Part shown: positions 45,311 to 54,169 of the stretch, piece by piece
Layout: each line of letters starts with the position of its first letter
How positions within the stretch are numbered: position 1 is the first letter of the stretch
Assembly: GCF_000415985.1 (NCBI RefSeq)
Contig: NZ_KE356561.1
Coordinates: forward strand, 1,609,487 to 1,673,486
From: Haloquadratum walsbyi J07HQW2
Lineage (GTDB): Archaea; Halobacteriota; Halobacteria; Halobacteriales; Haloferacaceae
Length of the DNA stretch: 64,000 nt
Reading direction: 5' to 3'
The notes under the pieces: model-generated
Told to the model about the DNA's origin: nothing
What the model saw: only the letters and a program-made list of their open reading frames with translations
Database searches by the model: none
Made by a program: the position numbers and the translations under genes

Positions 45311-47539
45311 TTATTGGAATCCAATCCGACCATCCTGTCGTCCACCGGGAAGGCGACTCTGTGTTCCGCCTTTGAATTCCTCTTGCATGTCCTCATAGTA
45401 ATTCATGAGATCATCGGTGATTGTTGGTCGCACAGACTCCATCGCTTTACGAAAGTGACGCATTTCAATTTCCTGTGCATCACCATCTTCTCGAAGCGCC
45501 TCAATCGCTGCCTCACGTGCAACTGATTCGAGATCAGATCCAACGTAGCCATCAGTTATCTCTGCAATCTCTCTGAGACTTACATCCGGTGCAAGCGGTG
45601 ATTCACGGGTATGTATCTTGAGAATCTGTTCACGACCTTCCTCATCGGGCTGTCCGATGAGCACCAATCGGTCAAATCGACCTGAGCGGATGAGTGCTGG
45701 GTCAATCATATCTGGTCTGTTAGTTGCAGCAATGACCATCACATTTCCATTTTCTTCAAGCCCATCAAGCTCTGTCAGTAGCTGATTGACGACTCGCTCA
45801 GAGACGTTATTTCCTGTTCCGCCGCCTCGACTTGGAGCAAGACTATCGAGTTCATCAAAGAAAATGACTGTTGGACTGACCTGTCGTGCTTTCCGGAAGG
45901 TCTGTCGAATTGCCTTCTCTGACTCACCAACCCATTTTGAGAGTAACTGTGGACCTCGCACTGAGATGAAGTTTGCATTGGTCTCATTGGCAACAGCCTT
46001 TGCAATGAGTGTCTTGCCTGTCCCTGGCGGTCCATATAATAAGACACCCTTGGGTGCTTCGATACCCATCCGTTCAAACCGACCACGGGATGTAATGGGC
46101 CACTCAACGCTTTCTTTTACCTTCTGAGTTGGACTCTCAAGTCCGCCAACATCATCCCAAGACACCTTCGGTAACTCAACAAGGACTTCACGCATCGCAG
46201 AGGGCTCAACATCAGAGAGTGCGTCATTGAAATCGGCGCGTTTGACGATCATCCGGTCAATGAGGCTTGGAGGAACGTCTTCCTCATCAAGGTCAATCTC
46301 TGGTAGGTAGCGTCGTAGCGCTTTCATCGCTGCCTCTTTTGTCAAGGATTCAATATCTGCGCCAACAAAGCCATGGGTCTCATCTGCAAGATAATCCAAT
46401 GAGACGTCATCAGAGAGTGGCATTCCGCGAGTGTGAATCTGAAGGATTTCTTTCCGACCAACTTCATCAGGGACTCCAATTTCGATTTCACGGTCAAATC
46501 GGCCTGGGCGACGGAGTGCAGGATCGACACTGTCAACACGGTTGGTCGCGCCAATCACAATAACTTGCCCACGAGTCTCGAGCCCATCCATCATCGTCAG
46601 TAATTGTGCGACGACTCGGCGCTCAACCTCGCCGGTAACATCTTCGCGTTTTGGTGCGATTGAGTCGAGTTCATCAATGAAGATAATCGATGGTGATTCC
46701 TCAGTCGCATCCTCAAATATTTCACGGAGCTGTTGTTCGGACTCGCCGTAGTATTTTGAGATAATCTCTGGACCTGCAATTGAGAAGAAGCTTGCAGATG
46801 TCTCATTAGCGACAGCCTTTGCCAGGAGTGTCTTACCCGTTCCTGGCGGTCCATGAAGTAATACACCCTGTGGTGGTTCAATTCCTAGTTTCTTGAAGAT
46901 CTGTGGGTGTTTCATCGGTAGTTCAACCATTTCACGGACGCGTTGAATCTCGTTTTGGAGTCCACCGATGTCTTCGTAGGTTATTCCACCACCAGTTTTT
47001 TCAAATCCTGAGATCGGTTCCTCACGGAGCTCAACCTCTGTATCTTCAGTCACCAGACAAACACCATCCGGTTCTGTATTCACTGCAATAAGTGGGATCG
47101 CTTGACCGGGTGAACGCATGAAGGGGTGATTCGTCGATGACATTACAGGAACGATATCGCGTTCAACAACCGGGCGCTTGAGAATTTGTCGTTTAACCAT
47201 CCCAGCAGCATCCGAGCCAAACTGGACGCTTGCCTCCTCAGGTGGTGCTAATACTAGTTTTTCAGCTTTCGTTGTCTCAGCCTTCCGTATGGTAACACGT
47301 TCGCCGATACTAACATCGGCATTTTGTCTCGTAAAGCCGTCAACGCGGACAGTATCAGTATTCCAGTCTTGCCTATCAGCGCGCCACACCTTTGCTGCGG
47401 TAGTATCAGCGCCTTCGATCTCGATAATATCGCCTGGTGAGAGTTTCAGATGGAGTAGCGTGTCCGGGTCAAGACGGGCGATACCACGTCCTGAGTCGTT
47501 TGGGTACGCCTTCGCCACTTCAAGTTGGACTTCGTTCAT
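45311..47539 (-). CDS. cdc48: Cdc48/VCP-type AAA+ ATPase
   Basis: A 742-residue protein with the Cdc48 N domain (residues 1-180: double-psi barrel and 4-fold barrel) and two AAA+ modules. D1 has Walker A GPPGTGKT at 230-237 and Walker B FIDELD near 288. D2 has a second GPPGTGKT about 270 residues later, the pore segment and [10 protein letters not shown]. It unfolds proteins for the proteasome. The C-terminal tail is short and Gly/Arg-rich. Its neighbour larC is divergent. Confidence 0.97.
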
Positions 47540-47830
47540 AATTGAAAATCGCGGGGGTGCCTCCCGCTACATTTCAGGTCCTGAGTAAGTCTGTTTTCCG
47601 ATTCGGCCGATGACTCACTCAGACTGTGGCACTATACCACATATTAACTTCGGCGGATACAAATCCCTGACGCCTGCGGCAGTGAGTATCCAAACAGTTG
47701 TACACAATCGGTTATTCACTGAATCACTCCACACTCCATGGTCACGCCCGGGATATTCGGCTTGGGTTAGATAGGTTATGAATTATTCATAAATGCGCGA
47801 GCATATGTGGTTACAGACAGAGAAAGAATC

Positions 47831-49309
47831 ATGTCGCTACTCGTGTTCGATGGTCAGATGGGTGCAAGTGGGGATATGATCCTTGCAGCGCTTATTTCAG
47901 CAGGCGCTTCACCAGATGTACTTAGCCCTATCGAAGATGCTCTTGGAATACGATATGTCATTGATACTGAGACAAAAGGTGGTATCGCTGCGACACGGGT
48001 TCGCATTGTAGTTGACTCTGAGACTACACATACTCACTCTGAGAATCAATCAATTGGACACAAAAGAGACCAGGGGCAAGCACACACGCACGATGAGTCA
48101 TGGACTAATGAGCAACATACACACAACACAACAGAAAGTGACGATCATACACATAGTTATGATGGAGATGATACTAAGAGTCATAACCATGGTCACGATC
48201 ATGACGAGTCAGACGAAATAGAGGGTCATGGTCCAACGCGTTCTTACAAAGAAGTAATTGAGATTGTTGAGGGGATGGGACTTGATGCAGATGTTGAATC
48301 AACAGCAAGGAAAATTTTTAATCAGCTTGGTACCGCTGAAGCAGCAGTGCATGGAACATCGCTCTCATCGACACAGTTTCACGAAGTTGGCGCAGACGAT
48401 GCGATTGCTGATATCGTGGGAGCAGTACTTTTGCTCACAGACCTGGATATTGATCAGGTGTATGTGACACCGGTATCAACTGGTAGTGGAGAGATAACGA
48501 TGTCACACGGCTCATTTTCGGTTCCACCACCCGCAGTCGTCGAGATTGCTGGAGAAGCAACATGGTCGCTTCGTGGTGGTCCAGTTGAAGCTGAACTCCT
48601 CACGCCAACAGGCGCTGCGATATTAGCACACATTGCTGAGGGTGTGCGAACACTTCCAGCGCTTGATGTAACAACGACTAGCTATGGTGCTGGTGGATAC
48701 GACTTTGAGGAGTACCCAAATGTTCTTCGCGCTATTGTTGGAAGATCACCAACATCGACAGTGAGTGATGTCAGCATAGATGCGAGTAGTGTAGATGAAT
48801 CACAATCTGTCTCAGAGACAGATGAGTTTACATTTGATCGTGAATCGATTGTTGTATTAGAGACAAATCTTGACGATGCTACCCCTGAGGTACTTGGTAG
48901 TCTTCAGAAGACATTGACAGATGTTGGTGCACTCGATGTAACAATTGTTCCAACAGCAATGAAGAAATCACGACCTGGACATCTGATCAAAGTTATTGTG
49001 AAGCCAGATGATGCGTCGGGTGTTGCTCAGCGACTTGCAGCTGAGACTGGTACATTAGGTATTCGCGAGCATCCTGCCCGGCATCGCTGGCGCGCTGATC
49101 GGAAACTTCAGACCATTACGCTGACAGTTGATGACAATGAGTACGAAATTACGGTCAAAATCGCAAGTGATGGTGACGGGATAGTGTATGATTACAGTGC
49201 AGAGTATGATGATGCACTCGCAGTCGCAACAACGACCGGTCGTCCTGTGCGTGAGATACGTCGTCAGGCAGAGGCAGCCGCCAGATCAATAGTGAGTTCA
49301 GATTCATGA
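47831..49309 (+). CDS. larC: LarC-like nickel-insertion protein with His-rich loop
   Basis: A 492-residue member of the LarC/DUF111 family, which adds nickel to the pincer cofactor of lactate racemase. FDGQMGASGDM is at residues 6-16; the C-terminal part has TNLDDATPEVLGSL. Between residues 67 and 133 lies a loop with 14 histidines among Asp, Glu and Thr, a likely metal store. The start is the ATG of MSLLVFDG. LarB, LarE and LarA are not adjacent. Larger spacing (290 bp) separates it from divergent cdc48. Confidence 0.93.
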   Translation: MSLLVFDGQMGASGDMILAALISAGASPDVLSPIEDALGIRYVIDTETKGGIAATRVRIVVDSETTHTHSENQSIGHKRDQGQAHTHDESWTNEQHTHNTTESDDHTHSYDGDDTKSHNHGHDHDESDEIEGHGPTRSYKEVIEIVEGMGLDADVESTARKIFNQLGTAEAAVHGTSLSSTQFHEVGADDAIADIVGAVLLLTDLDIDQVYVTPVSTGSGEITMSHGSFSVPPPAVVEIAGEATWSLRGGPVEAELLTPTGAAILAHIAEGVRTLPALDVTTTSYGAGGYDFEEYPNVLRAIVGRSPTSTVSDVSIDASSVDESQSVSETDEFTFDRESIVVLETNLDDATPEVLGSLQKTLTDVGALDVTIVPTAMKKSRPGHLIKVIVKPDDASGVAQRLAAETGTLGIREHPARHRWRADRKLQTITLTVDDNEYEITVKIASDGDGIVYDYSAEYDDALAVATTTGRPVREIRRQAEAAARSIVSSDS

Positions 49310-49352: not shown

Positions 49353-50096
49353 TTACTCGTCGCCACGATGAACTGAAAGCGCTTCTCCAAGTGTGAGCTC
49401 TCCAACGGCAACACGACGGGCGAGCTCAGCATCAATAGTTCGATTCTCAGGAGCCATCTGACGTGAACGGTCTTTTATACGCTGGATTTCACCGGCTGTT
49501 GGTTCAAGTGTTCGCGTTTCCGTAATTTCACCGCTTCGCCGGGCAATATTGATTGCTGCAAGTACATCGCCCATTCCACGTGCGCCTGCCCCAAGATACG
49601 GTGTCGTTCCTGCTTCATCAACAATCTCAACGACAACATCTTCGAGGTCATTGACCAATTGCGCACCTTGGAGCCGGGCGCCGTCACCAATCCGGACAAT
49701 TGGGTCAGGATCATCGATGTCTGTCAGTTCAGATTTGATCGTTTCAACAGCCTCTGATAGCGGGACTTGGAATGCACTAATCACTTCATCACCGACGAGA
49801 ATAGCAATGCCAGGATTCGAGCCAGGGTCAACACCTACAATCGTTCGCCCATCATCACCACCGCGAAGTATTGAGACTGCTGATTCAACTGCACGACGTG
49901 CTTCTGACCCAGCGACAACAACACTTTCAGCGTCAGGAGGAAGCGAGACTGTATCGGCTGGTGTCCGAATAATGACTTGTGTGCCCGGAGGAGGGTCTGT
50001 CCCTGATTCAATTGTGGTGAATCGCACATCTCTGTCCCGCAGCTCGCCGACGACATCGTGATACAACTCAAAGTCGTCGGTGGCGACGACAATCAC
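49353..50096 (-). CDS. YqgF/RuvC-like RNase H-fold protein
   Basis: A 247-residue protein. The N-terminal 80 residues form a small alpha/beta region. From residue 87 there is a RuvC/YqgF-type fold: VGVDPGSNPG with Asp90, the strand-4 motif EIVDEAGTT with Glu161, and GMGDVLAAINIARRSG with Asp177. The acidic residues line up with the catalytic set of RNase H-like nucleases. A charged C-terminal helical tail follows. It may process recombination or RNA structures. It is divergent from radB, 264 bp away. Family name is not certain. Confidence 0.75.
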   Translation of the reverse strand: MIVVATDDFELYHDVVGELRDRDVRFTTIESGTDPPPGTQVIIRTPADTVSLPPDAESVVVAGSEARRAVESAVSILRGGDDGRTIVGVDPGSNPGIAILVGDEVISAFQVPLSEAVETIKSELTDIDDPDPIVRIGDGARLQGAQLVNDLEDVVVEIVDEAGTTPYLGAGARGMGDVLAAINIARRSGEITETRTLEPTAGEIQRIKDRSRQMAPENRTIDAELARRVAVGELTLGEALSVHRGDE

Positions 50097-50360
50097 GTCT
50101 TATACTCAGTACCCACTACAGTTATTAGTTGTCAGTATTGTTGGTGCAGTTTATAAACCGTCAGACATCTTCCAGAGAATTTCAGTAAATAGAGTTCTTG
50201 TGTTTTAGATAAGACATTTTCACAATCACACTGAGATGCTGTTTCAAGTATGCTTCCGTATATCATCTCGTTATTTTATTCAATATATGTAGCAGCGGTG
50301 AGAATTTTCAAGAGTGCTCAAATCGAGGGGTTTTTCGCTTGAGGTCTCTCACTCACCGGC

Positions 50361-51140
50361 GTGTCACGACCACTCTCGACAGGGTGTCAATCGCTTGATT
50401 CCCTTCTCGGTGGAGGATTTGAGCGCGGAACTGTCACGCAAGTTTATGGACCTCCTGCCGCAGGGAAAACAAACATTATGCTTTCAGCGGCTCTTCATAC
50501 TGCAGCAGCTGATAGCATGGCTATTTATGTTGATACTGAGGGAATCTCATCGGATCGTTTTCGACAGATTGCAAACGGCGTTACTGATGAGCTATCCTCA
50601 GCGGATCGTGAATCCCTCACCTCACAGGTTATGATATCTGACGCCCATGATTTCGAGGCACAAGCAGTCGCAGTTCGTGACACTGCAGAATTCGCTCACC
50701 GCGCTGATATCATTATTCTTGATAGTGCAACCGGGTTTTATCGACTTCAACGAACGCTCGGAGGGACTCTTGAGAATAATGTCGAGTCGAGGCAATCCTC
50801 GGCGGGAAGTACAGAGAACACAGAACGCACTGAGAATGCAGATGATGGTGATACACTTCGCCGACTTACGACCCAGATCACACATCTTCTCTCACTTGCT
50901 CGAAAGCATGACCTTGCTGTCGTCATTACGAATCAGGTCTTTACCGATCCTGATACTGACCGGGTTCGACCACTCGGCGGGTATACCTTAGAACATTGGA
51001 CAGGGACGGTCCTTAGACTTGAACGGTTTCGCGGTGGTAAACGACGGGCGACTCTCGAGAAACACCGATCGAAGCCAACCGGTGAATCTGAAACGTTCGT
51101 CATCACTGACAGTGGTGTTGCAGATAACAAGATTGAATAA
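50361..51140 (+). CDS. radB: RadB recombinase paralogue
   Basis: RecA-fold protein of 259 residues. Walker A is GPPAAGKT (about residues 30-37), Walker B is IIILDSATGF, and VVITNQVF and LGGYTLEHW follow. It lacks the N-terminal helix-hairpin-helix domain of RadA. RadB assists RadA loading during homologous recombination. The start is a GTG, as no ATG precedes the first motif. A variable acidic stretch lies near residues 140-165. It faces the YqgF/RuvC-like gene. Confidence 0.95.
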   Translation: MSRPLSTGCQSLDSLLGGGFERGTVTQVYGPPAAGKTNIMLSAALHTAAADSMAIYVDTEGISSDRFRQIANGVTDELSSADRESLTSQVMISDAHDFEAQAVAVRDTAEFAHRADIIILDSATGFYRLQRTLGGTLENNVESRQSSAGSTENTERTENADDGDTLRRLTTQITHLLSLARKHDLAVVITNQVFTDPDTDRVRPLGGYTLEHWTGTVLRLERFRGGKRRATLEKHRSKPTGESETFVITDSGVADNKIE

Positions 51141-51585: not shown

Positions 51586-51589
51586 TTAC
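51560..51589. repeat. Tandem hexamer GACTCA/GACTTA
   Basis: Two copies of GACTCA and two of GACTTA are head to tail, with a degenerate fifth copy. The array abuts, and the fifth unit overlaps, the stop codon of the CBS-HPF gene. It is a short microsatellite. Because the unit is six bases, slippage would not shift a frame, and it lies mostly in the 3' untranslated part. Confidence 0.6.
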
Positions 51590-52734
51590 AGTTCACCCAA
51601 CTTCCGAATCAATTGCCCGCGATATCGTTCATCAGCATTGACACCTTTCATTTCGAGCACATTCCGTTCAAGCTTATCAAGTGCAACATGAAATGCATTT
51701 TCAGCACCATATCCTTCGCCACTTCCCGCGACTTGTCCGAGACTCGTTCGAAGTCGAATCTGACACTGCATGAGCGGTGTCCCCCGAAGTTTCTCTTTAT
51801 GTTCATGAAGTCGGACATGCGCATGAAGGACCTGCATCTGCTGATATTTGTCCACAACATCAGTAATCGATTCAACGATCTCTGTTCGAGTGAGCGTTTC
51901 AAGAAGTCCGATATTTGTAATTTGAACATCCATCGACTCCTCTTCGGTAAATGTGAGTGCTCTGAGCACGTCTGTCTTCGTGAGAACTCCCTTGACTGTT
52001 GTATCACCGGTAGCAGGCGTCACCACCAGTCCCGAGATATCATTATCAAACATGCGCTCAACAGCATCACTTACTGGTTCACCGGGTTGGGCAGTAATAA
52101 CTGGTGCAGACATTAGATCATAAACAGGGAGATCAAGCATACGGTCAATGTCACCGCTGCGGTCCCCACGACCTTGTCGGTCATCGTCGCGAACGACAAA
52201 GTCGATAATGTCGTGTGTGGTAAGAATGCCGGTAAGTGAGCTTAATTCGTCCTGTTCGACCACTGGAACACGGGAAATGCTATGTTCACGGAGTTTATTT
52301 ATTGCTTCTCCGAGAGGTGATTGCTCAGCGACATCTACAACATCATCAGTGAAGATATCTTCAACAGAAATTGCATCAAGATTTTCAAGAACAGCTTCCA
52401 AGATATTCTCGCCTGTGACAATACCATAGAGTTGCTGACCCTCAAATACAGGGGCGACATTGACATCGCCCTCAACCAACATCCGAGCGGCTTCGCGGAC
52501 ATCCTCATCCCGGTCTAGTTTTGGTGCTGATTTCGTAACAACAGCCACTTTTGTGTCATTATCCATCCGCGATCGGACTAATTGTTTTTCACCGACAACA
52601 CCGGTGTACTCTCCCTGTTCAGTGATGATTATTCCATTTGGTCGTTCACGGTCAAAGATAGACCGAATTTTGCCTAACCGCTTGTCAGCATGAGCCTCAA
52701 CGTAATCAGGAGTGGCAATAGTAGTGATATCCAT
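51586..52734 (-). CDS. CBS-domain protein with C-terminal HPF-like domain
   Basis: A 382-residue protein. Residues 1-268 hold four CBS motifs, the first of which is degenerate; the last ends VKGVLTKTDVLRAL. Residues 270-370 look like a ribosome hibernation factor (HPF/RaiA) fold: MDVQITNIGLLETLTRTEI, then VLHAHVRLHEHKEKL, then GAENAFHVALDKLERNV. CBS domains usually bind adenine nucleotides, so this may tie ribosome inactivation to energy state. This is an inference from layout. It converges on radB. Confidence 0.8.
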   Translation of the reverse strand: MDITTIATPDYVEAHADKRLGKIRSIFDRERPNGIIITEQGEYTGVVGEKQLVRSRMDNDTKVAVVTKSAPKLDRDEDVREAARMLVEGDVNVAPVFEGQQLYGIVTGENILEAVLENLDAISVEDIFTDDVVDVAEQSPLGEAINKLREHSISRVPVVEQDELSSLTGILTTHDIIDFVVRDDDRQGRGDRSGDIDRMLDLPVYDLMSAPVITAQPGEPVSDAVERMFDNDISGLVVTPATGDTTVKGVLTKTDVLRALTFTEEESMDVQITNIGLLETLTRTEIVESITDVVDKYQQMQVLHAHVRLHEHKEKLRGTPLMQCQIRLRTSLGQVAGSGEGYGAENAFHVALDKLERNVLEMKGVNADERYRGQLIRKLGEL

Positions 52735-52824: not shown

Positions 52825-53556
52825 TTATGATAAATCATTACTATGAGTATTACCAAACTGCTCAGCAGGAAGACGTAGTTCTTTCAACCCAGGGAGCTGT
52901 TCGATGTTAAATACAACCTGTAGATCATTACTCACGGGTTGACCGATACAAGATAGTCGGATACCTCGATTAACCATCCCATCGGTGAGGATGGTGCTGA
53001 CACTCATCTCAACAACTCCATCAATGACAGCAATCGCACAATTCGCACATGCACCGCCTCGACAGGCATATGGCCATGAGAATCCATAGCGCTCAGCGGC
53101 TTCAAGTAATGATTCACGAGGTTCAACAACAAAGATTCCGTGAGTATCGATATCAAGATCAACTGCATCGGCTTTTGCAAAGAGGTCCGGATCCGTGAGT
53201 TTCCATCCATAGTCAGCGAGAATTTCATAATCAAGATACTCAACGGTTGGTCCGAGTGTATCGGTCTCATCCGCCTCATCAACGGAACTGGAACTCGATG
53301 CTGACGTTGATGTCGGCTCTGTATCACCACTCTGTGTAGTTGTGGTATAGTCTGCTTCGGTAGCTATATTAAACTCACTCGCGGGAGCCCCAGAGTCAAT
53401 ATGCTCATAAGCGCGACGGACGCGTTTGAATTCTGTAAGCGATCCTCCGTGGTCAGGATGTACCTCTTTTATGCGCGTGCGATATGCCTGAAGAATCGTC
53501 TCTTCATCAGCGCTTGGGGATATGCCAAGTATATCGTAGACCGACGACACAACCAT
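52825..53556 (-). CDS. J-domain fused to halophilic [2Fe-2S] ferredoxin
   Basis: A 243-residue protein. An N-terminal J-domain (residues 4-60) carries the HPD motif at 33-35. A Ser/Thr/Asp linker follows. The C-terminal part is a plant-type ferredoxin with the haloarchaeal insertion (YLDYEILADYGWKLTDPDLF), cluster cysteines in CRGGACANC and a fourth in RLSCIG. The start is the ATG of MVVSSVYDILG. It may deliver electrons or recruit DnaK to iron-sulfur work; this is inferred. Confidence 0.85.
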   Translation of the reverse strand: MVVSSVYDILGISPSADEETILQAYRTRIKEVHPDHGGSLTEFKRVRRAYEHIDSGAPASEFNIATEADYTTTTQSGDTEPTSTSASSSSSVDEADETDTLGPTVEYLDYEILADYGWKLTDPDLFAKADAVDLDIDTHGIFVVEPRESLLEAAERYGFSWPYACRGGACANCAIAVIDGVVEMSVSTILTDGMVNRGIRLSCIGQPVSNDLQVVFNIEQLPGLKELRLPAEQFGNTHSNDLS

Positions 53557-54169
53557 TGCTCTGTGGTCAGGCTGATTAGTCTCTTCCTTCTGATTGCGCT
53601 TTCCCTCATAGACTAACGCTTTTGTCAAGAAATCAGCCTGTTTGATGGGTATAGTGAGATCGCTTATTCAGGCGATTGGTGAGTGTCCGCACGACCGTGA
53701 GACCAATACCAACTTGCAATTAAGCGAAATCGACATTCAATGGTATATACTATATATACAGAAGTACGCTCAGCTCCTTGGATGGATAGAATTAGCATTC
53801 GTAAAAATTGTCTAAATTTGACATTTTCTCTATCCCGAAGGGTGGGGTAGTTCACCCTTGCAATTCCAATAACCACATGATGACTCGTTTGTTATGACTA
53901 GGAGTAATGATTATACGCTATCTGAGAGTATTGTATTCTCTCTAAGTTACCCAGATAAACTGAAAGTTACCCGACAGGTGTCACTGTCAAACCTAAAGAT
54001 GGATTTATTACTAACAAGGGGGTACAGACGCTTTTGAACCGCTTGCTAAGACAGTTGATCGTCTTTACCATATCACGGTTAGAGCGTAATAATATATGTA
54101 TTAAAAACTATTGTCGGTAATATAGAGTACATATAAGAATTTAATCTGATGGTCAGTCTCTGTATGATT
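53557..54169. other. Long intergenic region before the LMW phosphatase
   Basis: A 613-bp stretch without a credible ORF. It contains a near-palindromic GTATATACTATATATAC around 53742-53760, a 7-bp hairpin at 53838-53859, and an AT-rich promoter area at 54115-54140. No RNA gene was recognised. Confidence 0.55.
53838..53859. repeat. Hairpin AAGGGTG/CACCCTT
   Basis: A perfect seven-pair stem with an eight-base loop lies in the middle of the long spacer. No T-tract follows on either strand. It may belong to an untranslated RNA or be a binding site. Confidence 0.45.

Follow-up and report, generated by a model that had tools for sequence, protein, structure and literature searches.

In IS110-type recombinases the second acid of the site lies in strand 4 and two acids are carried on the last helix, and in Tex and Spt6 the YqgF domain is one of several, HhH and S1 domains among them. 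For RuvC the published description puts the second acid in strand 4 and a pair of acids on the last helix; in YqgF the strand-4 Glu is missing, a Glu closes strand 5 and the last helix bears a single acid (PMC9601230). The second carboxylate of RuvX and Tex is reported as relocated from strand 4 to strand 5, Tex as being without the third carboxylate, and DUF460 as retaining the acids of strands 1 and 4 and of the helix (PMC3985635). Deinococcus radiodurans YqgF is reported as a Mn2+-dependent RNase, which is impaired by D22A and blocked by E106A and D122A (PMC9601230). Fold and active site of this kind are already known; neither a stand-alone archaeal architecture with radB/fen1 linkage, nor the family analysed here as a YqgF-type protein, was found described in the accessible parts of the open literature searched.

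The window is a stretch of 64,000 nucleotides from Haloquadratum walsbyi J07HQW2, whose genome (3.59 Mb, about 46% GC) is a single contig. At 49353–50096, on the minus strand, it contains a gene for a protein of 247 amino acids, a predicted RNase H-like protein of the YqgF/Tex type, with a GTG start that matches the orthologue starts and is preceded, at about 27 bases, by a TATA-like stretch. The product consists of an N-terminal alpha/beta domain (residues 1–80; 49857–50096, minus strand), the RNase H-like domain (residues 84–194; 49515–49847, minus strand) and conserved C-terminal helices (residues 201–244; 49365–49496, minus strand). The initial annotation had the gene facing radB, and the divergent neighbour at 50361–51140 (plus strand) is indeed this recombination mediator (NCBIfam RadB equivalog, 409 bits); 265 bases separate the gene from the radB start on the opposite strand, and in the intergenic region (50097–50360) TATA-like stretches lie about 27 bases ahead of both start codons. 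On the other flank, larC (nickel-pincer cofactor) is the convergent neighbour at 47807–49309 (plus strand), followed outwards by a Cdc48-type AAA ATPase at 45311–47539 (minus strand), recognized by sequence and by match to homologous loci; larC is a member, and the ATPase the outer member, of a conserved block.

The AlphaFold2 model of the protein, for which 60 haloarchaeal sequences were used (that of the window and 59 of those from 80 related loci), had a mean pLDDT of 85.4 and a pTM of 0.57, so that the domains are reliable and their placement relative to each other is not. The secondary structure of residues 84–194 runs E-E-E-H-E-H-E-H in this model. When the whole model was first compared by Foldseek, unrelated or Argonaute chains took the top places; the order changed on rescoring the 1000 best Foldseek chains by VIA, in which model residues 79–200 were matched. 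The rescored matches were an IS110-type recombinase (Z 12.2, 2.9 Å, 107 residues), Tex (Z 11.7, 3.9 Å, 108 residues, 21% identity), Spt6 (Z 10.6, 3.3 Å, 103 residues, 21–23% identity), Thermus thermophilus RuvC (Z 10.5, 3.8 Å, 107 residues), RuvX (7ess; Z 10.4, 3.0 Å, 107 residues), MOC1 (Z 9.6) and Escherichia coli YqgF (Z 9.0, 3.0 Å, 96 residues); among the top structural matches, identity was highest for Tex and Spt6. A five-stranded core and similarity to the RuvC group, at Z 9–12 over about 100–110 residues, place the domain in the RNase H-like superfamily, the fold that the initial annotation had expected.

Independently of the model, the homologue profile was compared by hhalign with 8 Tex, 6 RuvX, 19 DUF460 and 1 RuvC targets. 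The scores were 41.7 over 122 columns for the Tex domains (maximum of 40 column shuffles, 20.0), 26.8 for RuvX (maximum of 40 column shuffles, 16.9), 41.0 over only 39 columns for DUF460 (shuffle maximum, 24.1) and 25.6 over 10 columns for RuvC. No Pfam or NCBIfam family reached its cut-off, and at E up to 1 neither the window protein nor any of 32 homologues had a RuvX hit in these libraries; for the window protein itself the only Pfam match was DUF460, sub-threshold at 15.1 bits over residues 81–100, and NCBIfam gave none. A sequence-profile search of the PDB returned only chance matches to ankyrin repeats and sub-threshold MOC1 hits. An RNase H-like fold of the YqgF/RuvC group is supported for the protein by the modelling.

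In the model, Asp90 (codon 49827–49829, minus strand) closes strand 1, Glu161 (49614–49616, minus strand) stands directly past strand 5 (residues 155–159) in a VDE-x-x-TT motif, and Asp177 (49566–49568, minus strand) falls within the opening turns of the last core helix (residues 175–185) in a D-x-x-AA-x-NIA motif. Strand 4 is without a conserved acid, residue 138 being D, H, N, S or R. An Asp in strand 1, an acid after strand 5, none in strand 4 and one on the helix together form the rearranged site of the YqgF type, which assigns the protein to the YqgF/RuvX/Tex subtype and not to RuvC or DUF460. None of the three acids varies among 30 haloarchaeal orthologues or across the 32 rows of an alignment (19 of them homologues at 33–41% identity), and 137 of 138 distinct pieces in the alignment keep them all; the lone exception, a 50-residue N-terminal fragment (L063), ends short of these columns, so that the count is 137 of 137 for pieces spanning them. 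The initial annotation had put these residues at the positions expected of an RNase H-fold nuclease: their invariance stands, with no sign of poor conservation among orthologues, but Glu161 occupies the strand 5 position of YqgF and Tex instead of the strand 4 position of RuvC and RNase H. The triad has its counterparts in D22, E106 and D122 of D. radiodurans YqgF. Glu161 and Asp177 are 16 residues apart, as are E106 and D122 there, a match that is suggestive only, because the corresponding spacing in E. coli YqgF is 26.

RuvX/YqgF (PF03652, COG0816) resembles the protein in its RNase H-like domain with a rearranged site (Z 9.0–10.4 against the model), with an Asp in strand 1, a Glu past strand 5 in DE-x-x-TT and a helix Asp before -x-x-AA; the family motifs V-D-E-x-x-T-T and D-x-x-A-A resemble D-E-R-x-[ST]-[ST] and D-x-x-[AS]-A of RuvX. 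Unlike RuvX, the protein is archaeal, begins with an added domain of 80 residues, has a tail of helices at its C-terminus and ends strand 4 in R-[IV]-G-x-G-x-R as against V-G-x-P; the RuvX family model (PF03652) did not match it, and the RuvX profile score was weaker. The YqgF domain of Tex (PF16921) and Spt6 is the best full-domain profile match: Glu161 aligns with the Glu of SEAG, and I-G-D-G in strand 4 resembles I-G-N-G of Tex. In contrast to the large multidomain Tex, the protein is stand-alone at 247 residues and has no HhH or S1 Pfam domains; Tex_YqgF had no match in the genome of the window. The RuvX-like acid motifs and the Tex-like I-G-D-G amount to a RuvX triad joined to a Tex-like strand 4.

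DUF460 (COG2433, PF04312) is likewise an archaeal, Tex-related RNase H-like family, whose strands 1–3 align with the present family at 46% identity over 39 columns, and weak sub-threshold hmmscan matches to it were obtained for 31 of 32 homologues. Its second acid, however, stays in strand 4 (invariant Asp289, numbered as in the first row of the DUF460 alignment), and its open frames, mostly of 400–700 residues, stand as a gene of their own in 115 of 120 genomes, that of the window included; with 15.1 bits against a curated cut-off of 28 and the second acid elsewhere, membership in DUF460 was rejected. RuvC and the DEDD domains of IS110/IS621 belong to the common fold group (Z 10.5 and 12.2) but differ from the present family in its single helix acid; membership in RuvC was rejected on a profile match of just 10 columns, the lack of a strand-4 acid and Asp177 being the only invariant acid on the helix.

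The extra N-terminal alpha/beta region named in the initial annotation was recovered as a small alpha/beta sheet domain when residues 1–80 were modelled alone (pLDDT 94.2, pTM 0.85). Its best Foldseek E-value was 0.14; by VIA it resembled PurE (Z 8.6, rmsd 2.4, 80 aligned) and a receiver domain (Z 8.2), a likeness too generic to give a function, and Csa3_N was matched in 5 of 32 homologues (best E 0.0042). Thr6 and Phe9 of its first loop are invariant and Asp8 is nearly so (131 D and 6 N among 137), so that the domain probably binds something. Glu203 and Arg212 are invariant in the C-terminal helices.

Of 146 genomes of the order, 120 have a homologue, mostly at full length and with E below 1e-60, so the observation is not due to chance. 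A phylum sample of 294 genomes gave 73 matches at E up to 0.001: 39 within the order, 23 strong ones outside it and 11 weak ones inside frames of DUF460 length. The 23 strong matches beyond the order fall into six families (f18, f23, f25, f28, f31 and f40), and loci were analysed for 20 of them; 19 distant homologues share 33–41% identity with the window protein at unchanged length. Carriage by viruses was considered and rejected, as 117 pattern matches in viral contigs included no relative. In Natronorubrum bangense, 10,726 bases containing the gene and radB are identical on the chromosome and on an 828 kb plasmid (L124/L126), by recent duplication or by assembly artefact; the 80 haloarchaeal loci thus include one repeated sequence. 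The public annotation of the plasmid-borne orthologue is 'hypothetical protein'. In Haloferax volcanii the presumed orthologue is HVO_2382, numbered between HVO_2381, a member of the LarC family (PMC8305020), and HVO_2383, which is RadB (PMC7776575). In the available text of PMC10470531, HVO_2382 appears only as an uncharacterized protein entered in a neighbourhood analysis, and that of the H. volcanii radB paper PMC5480776 does not mention it.

The protein is probably an active metal-dependent nuclease, judging from the intact YqgF-type triad, whose persistence over such divergence makes this the best reading. As in RuvX/YqgF, Asp90, Glu161 and Asp177 would coordinate a divalent metal, Mn2+ or Mg2+, for the hydrolysis of a phosphodiester bond, and the N-terminal alpha/beta domain and the C-terminal helices would choose the substrate or partner. 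More tentatively, as the explanation that we would put first, it may be a three-carboxylate, metal-dependent nuclease of the YqgF type acting on RNA-containing or branched intermediates in replication or recombination. Its targets would be R-loops, RNA:DNA and flapped or forked structures, rather than those of a main Holliday-junction resolvase, and the gene would be kept beside radB, with divergent promoters, because its product serves the same replication or recombination setting. Metal-dependent cleavage, the substrate, the DNA-repair setting and any contact with RadB are what we infer.

Upstream of both genes in the named haloarchaeal loci (61 and 70 usable upstream sequences), an A/T-rich box was found about 25–29 bases before the start codon. 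A box at this distance from the start codon is the pattern of leaderless transcripts. One box ahead of each gene indicates separate core promoters facing apart, across an intergenic gap with a median of 135 bases (71 haloarchaeal loci). Haloarchaeal radB promoters also have in common, some 30 bases ahead of the start codon, a strong G-rich element with TTTTTC after it; in the window (50300–50360) it reads GAGGGGTTTTTC.

The gene order that the initial annotation had pointed to is conserved across haloarchaea: radB is divergent upstream in 75 of 80 named loci, and of the 78 that have enough flank, 69 have it no more than 1.5 kb away. Outside Halobacteria it is the divergent neighbour in 14 of 20 loci (f18, 5/5; f23, 1/1; f25, 4/4; f31, 4/4), where independent linkage events are few because these loci come from four families and counts inside one family are not independent. 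The four f28 loci have no radB; fen1 (XPG domains) lies immediately upstream in tandem in all four. Neither was found at the two f40 loci, the neighbours there being a winged-helix protein, a nucleoside phosphorylase and a DUF373 protein. The radB linkage is real and old. It is also in part block synteny, since larC is near the gene in 12 and cdc48 in 10 of the 20 loci outside Halobacteria, so that the whole block is conserved. Nine radB loci were examined in genomes that lack the 247-residue protein: all have an intact radB, and none retains a detectable remnant of the gene; the flanks hold open frames that are unrelated, cold-shock-like or epimerase-like by eye, and the idea of a replacement gene beside radB was dropped. 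RadB itself is present in 195 of 196 phylum genomes (188 above the family cut-off), far wider than the protein. RadB therefore does not need the 247-residue protein, which rules out an obligate partner of RadB, and because radB persists without the gene and cdc48 and larC share the block, neighbourhood alone is no proof of partnership. Co-function with LarC was not supported either: the protein is present but LarC missing in at least 10 genomes, and the reverse holds in at least 13.

These observations bear on the strongest rival, an RNA-processing nuclease, like the YqgF of E. coli and D. radiodurans, without any role in recombination, whose place beside radB would reflect inherited order or a shared divergent promoter region. 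D. radiodurans YqgF is reported to be an RNase without junction-resolving activity (PMC9601230), larC and cdc48 in the block have no evident role in recombination, radB is kept where the gene is missing, and each gene has its own TATA-like element. Yet radB is held more tightly in haloarchaea than the other flank, where larC lies within 1.5 kb in 40 of 75 loci; the neighbour in the f28 loci without radB is a replication and repair nuclease; and presence is patchy, in the order as in the sample of 294 genomes, against what a core rRNA step would lead one to expect. This explanation is accordingly the less likely one: with radB and fen1 as neighbours, a setting in replication or recombination, which is quite possible, is favoured over general RNA turnover, which is rather doubtful.

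To our knowledge, no nuclease activity is known for Tex and Spt6, the closest full-domain relatives. A nuclease-dead nucleic-acid-binding or scaffold protein of their kind would fit the best full-domain profile match, to the YqgF domain of Tex, and Majorek et al. state that nuclease activity was then corroborated for neither Tex nor YqgF, and describe the migrated acid of YqgF as bent away (PMC3985635). Tex, however, is without the helix carboxylate (PMC3985635), and Asp177 is kept in all homologues that reach it; purely structural roles would, moreover, seldom preserve a full triad over such divergence, which makes a dead enzyme improbable. An extra Holliday-junction resolvase downstream of RadB/RadA is the least probable reading of all: the RuvC-group fold, the divergent radB and the reported junction resolution by the YqgF of Mycobacterium tuberculosis and Helicobacter pylori (PMC9601230) speak for it, but gene conversion is reported as nearly abolished by deletion of hjc (PMC11276520), and a general or main resolvase role is disfavoured because hef of H. 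volcanii is described as not deletable without hjc (PMC7776575).

A bolder form of the favoured reading, a replication or recombination nuclease, seems unlikely: the family might be a third YqgF branch beside RuvX and Tex/Spt6, surviving in archaea as an active nuclease reserved for the stage of recombination controlled by RadB, where it would remove RNA or trim branched ends for RadA loading, its N-terminal domain docking or sensing. We know of no nuclease that is a partner of RadB. Archaeal RadB is reported to promote the loading of the recombinase RadA (PMC7776575). With its label of hypothetical, its intact triad and its old radB/fen1 linkage, the family offers a genetically tractable nuclease candidate in HVO_2382 of H. 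volcanii. It also bears on the distribution and evolution of the YqgF lineage (RuvX, Tex, Spt6), because a RuvX-like triad and a Tex-like strand 4 are combined in archaea.

Other genes of the window were noted in passing. Near the first third of larC lies an insertion rich in His and acidic residues, with many HTH/HDH repeats, which is possibly a metal-holding stretch. The gene adjoining radB downstream, on the opposite strand (51586–52734), encodes a protein with four CBS domains whose C-terminal part weakly matches ribosome-associated S30AE proteins, and at 52825–53628 a single protein combines a DnaJ domain with a 2Fe-2S ferredoxin domain.
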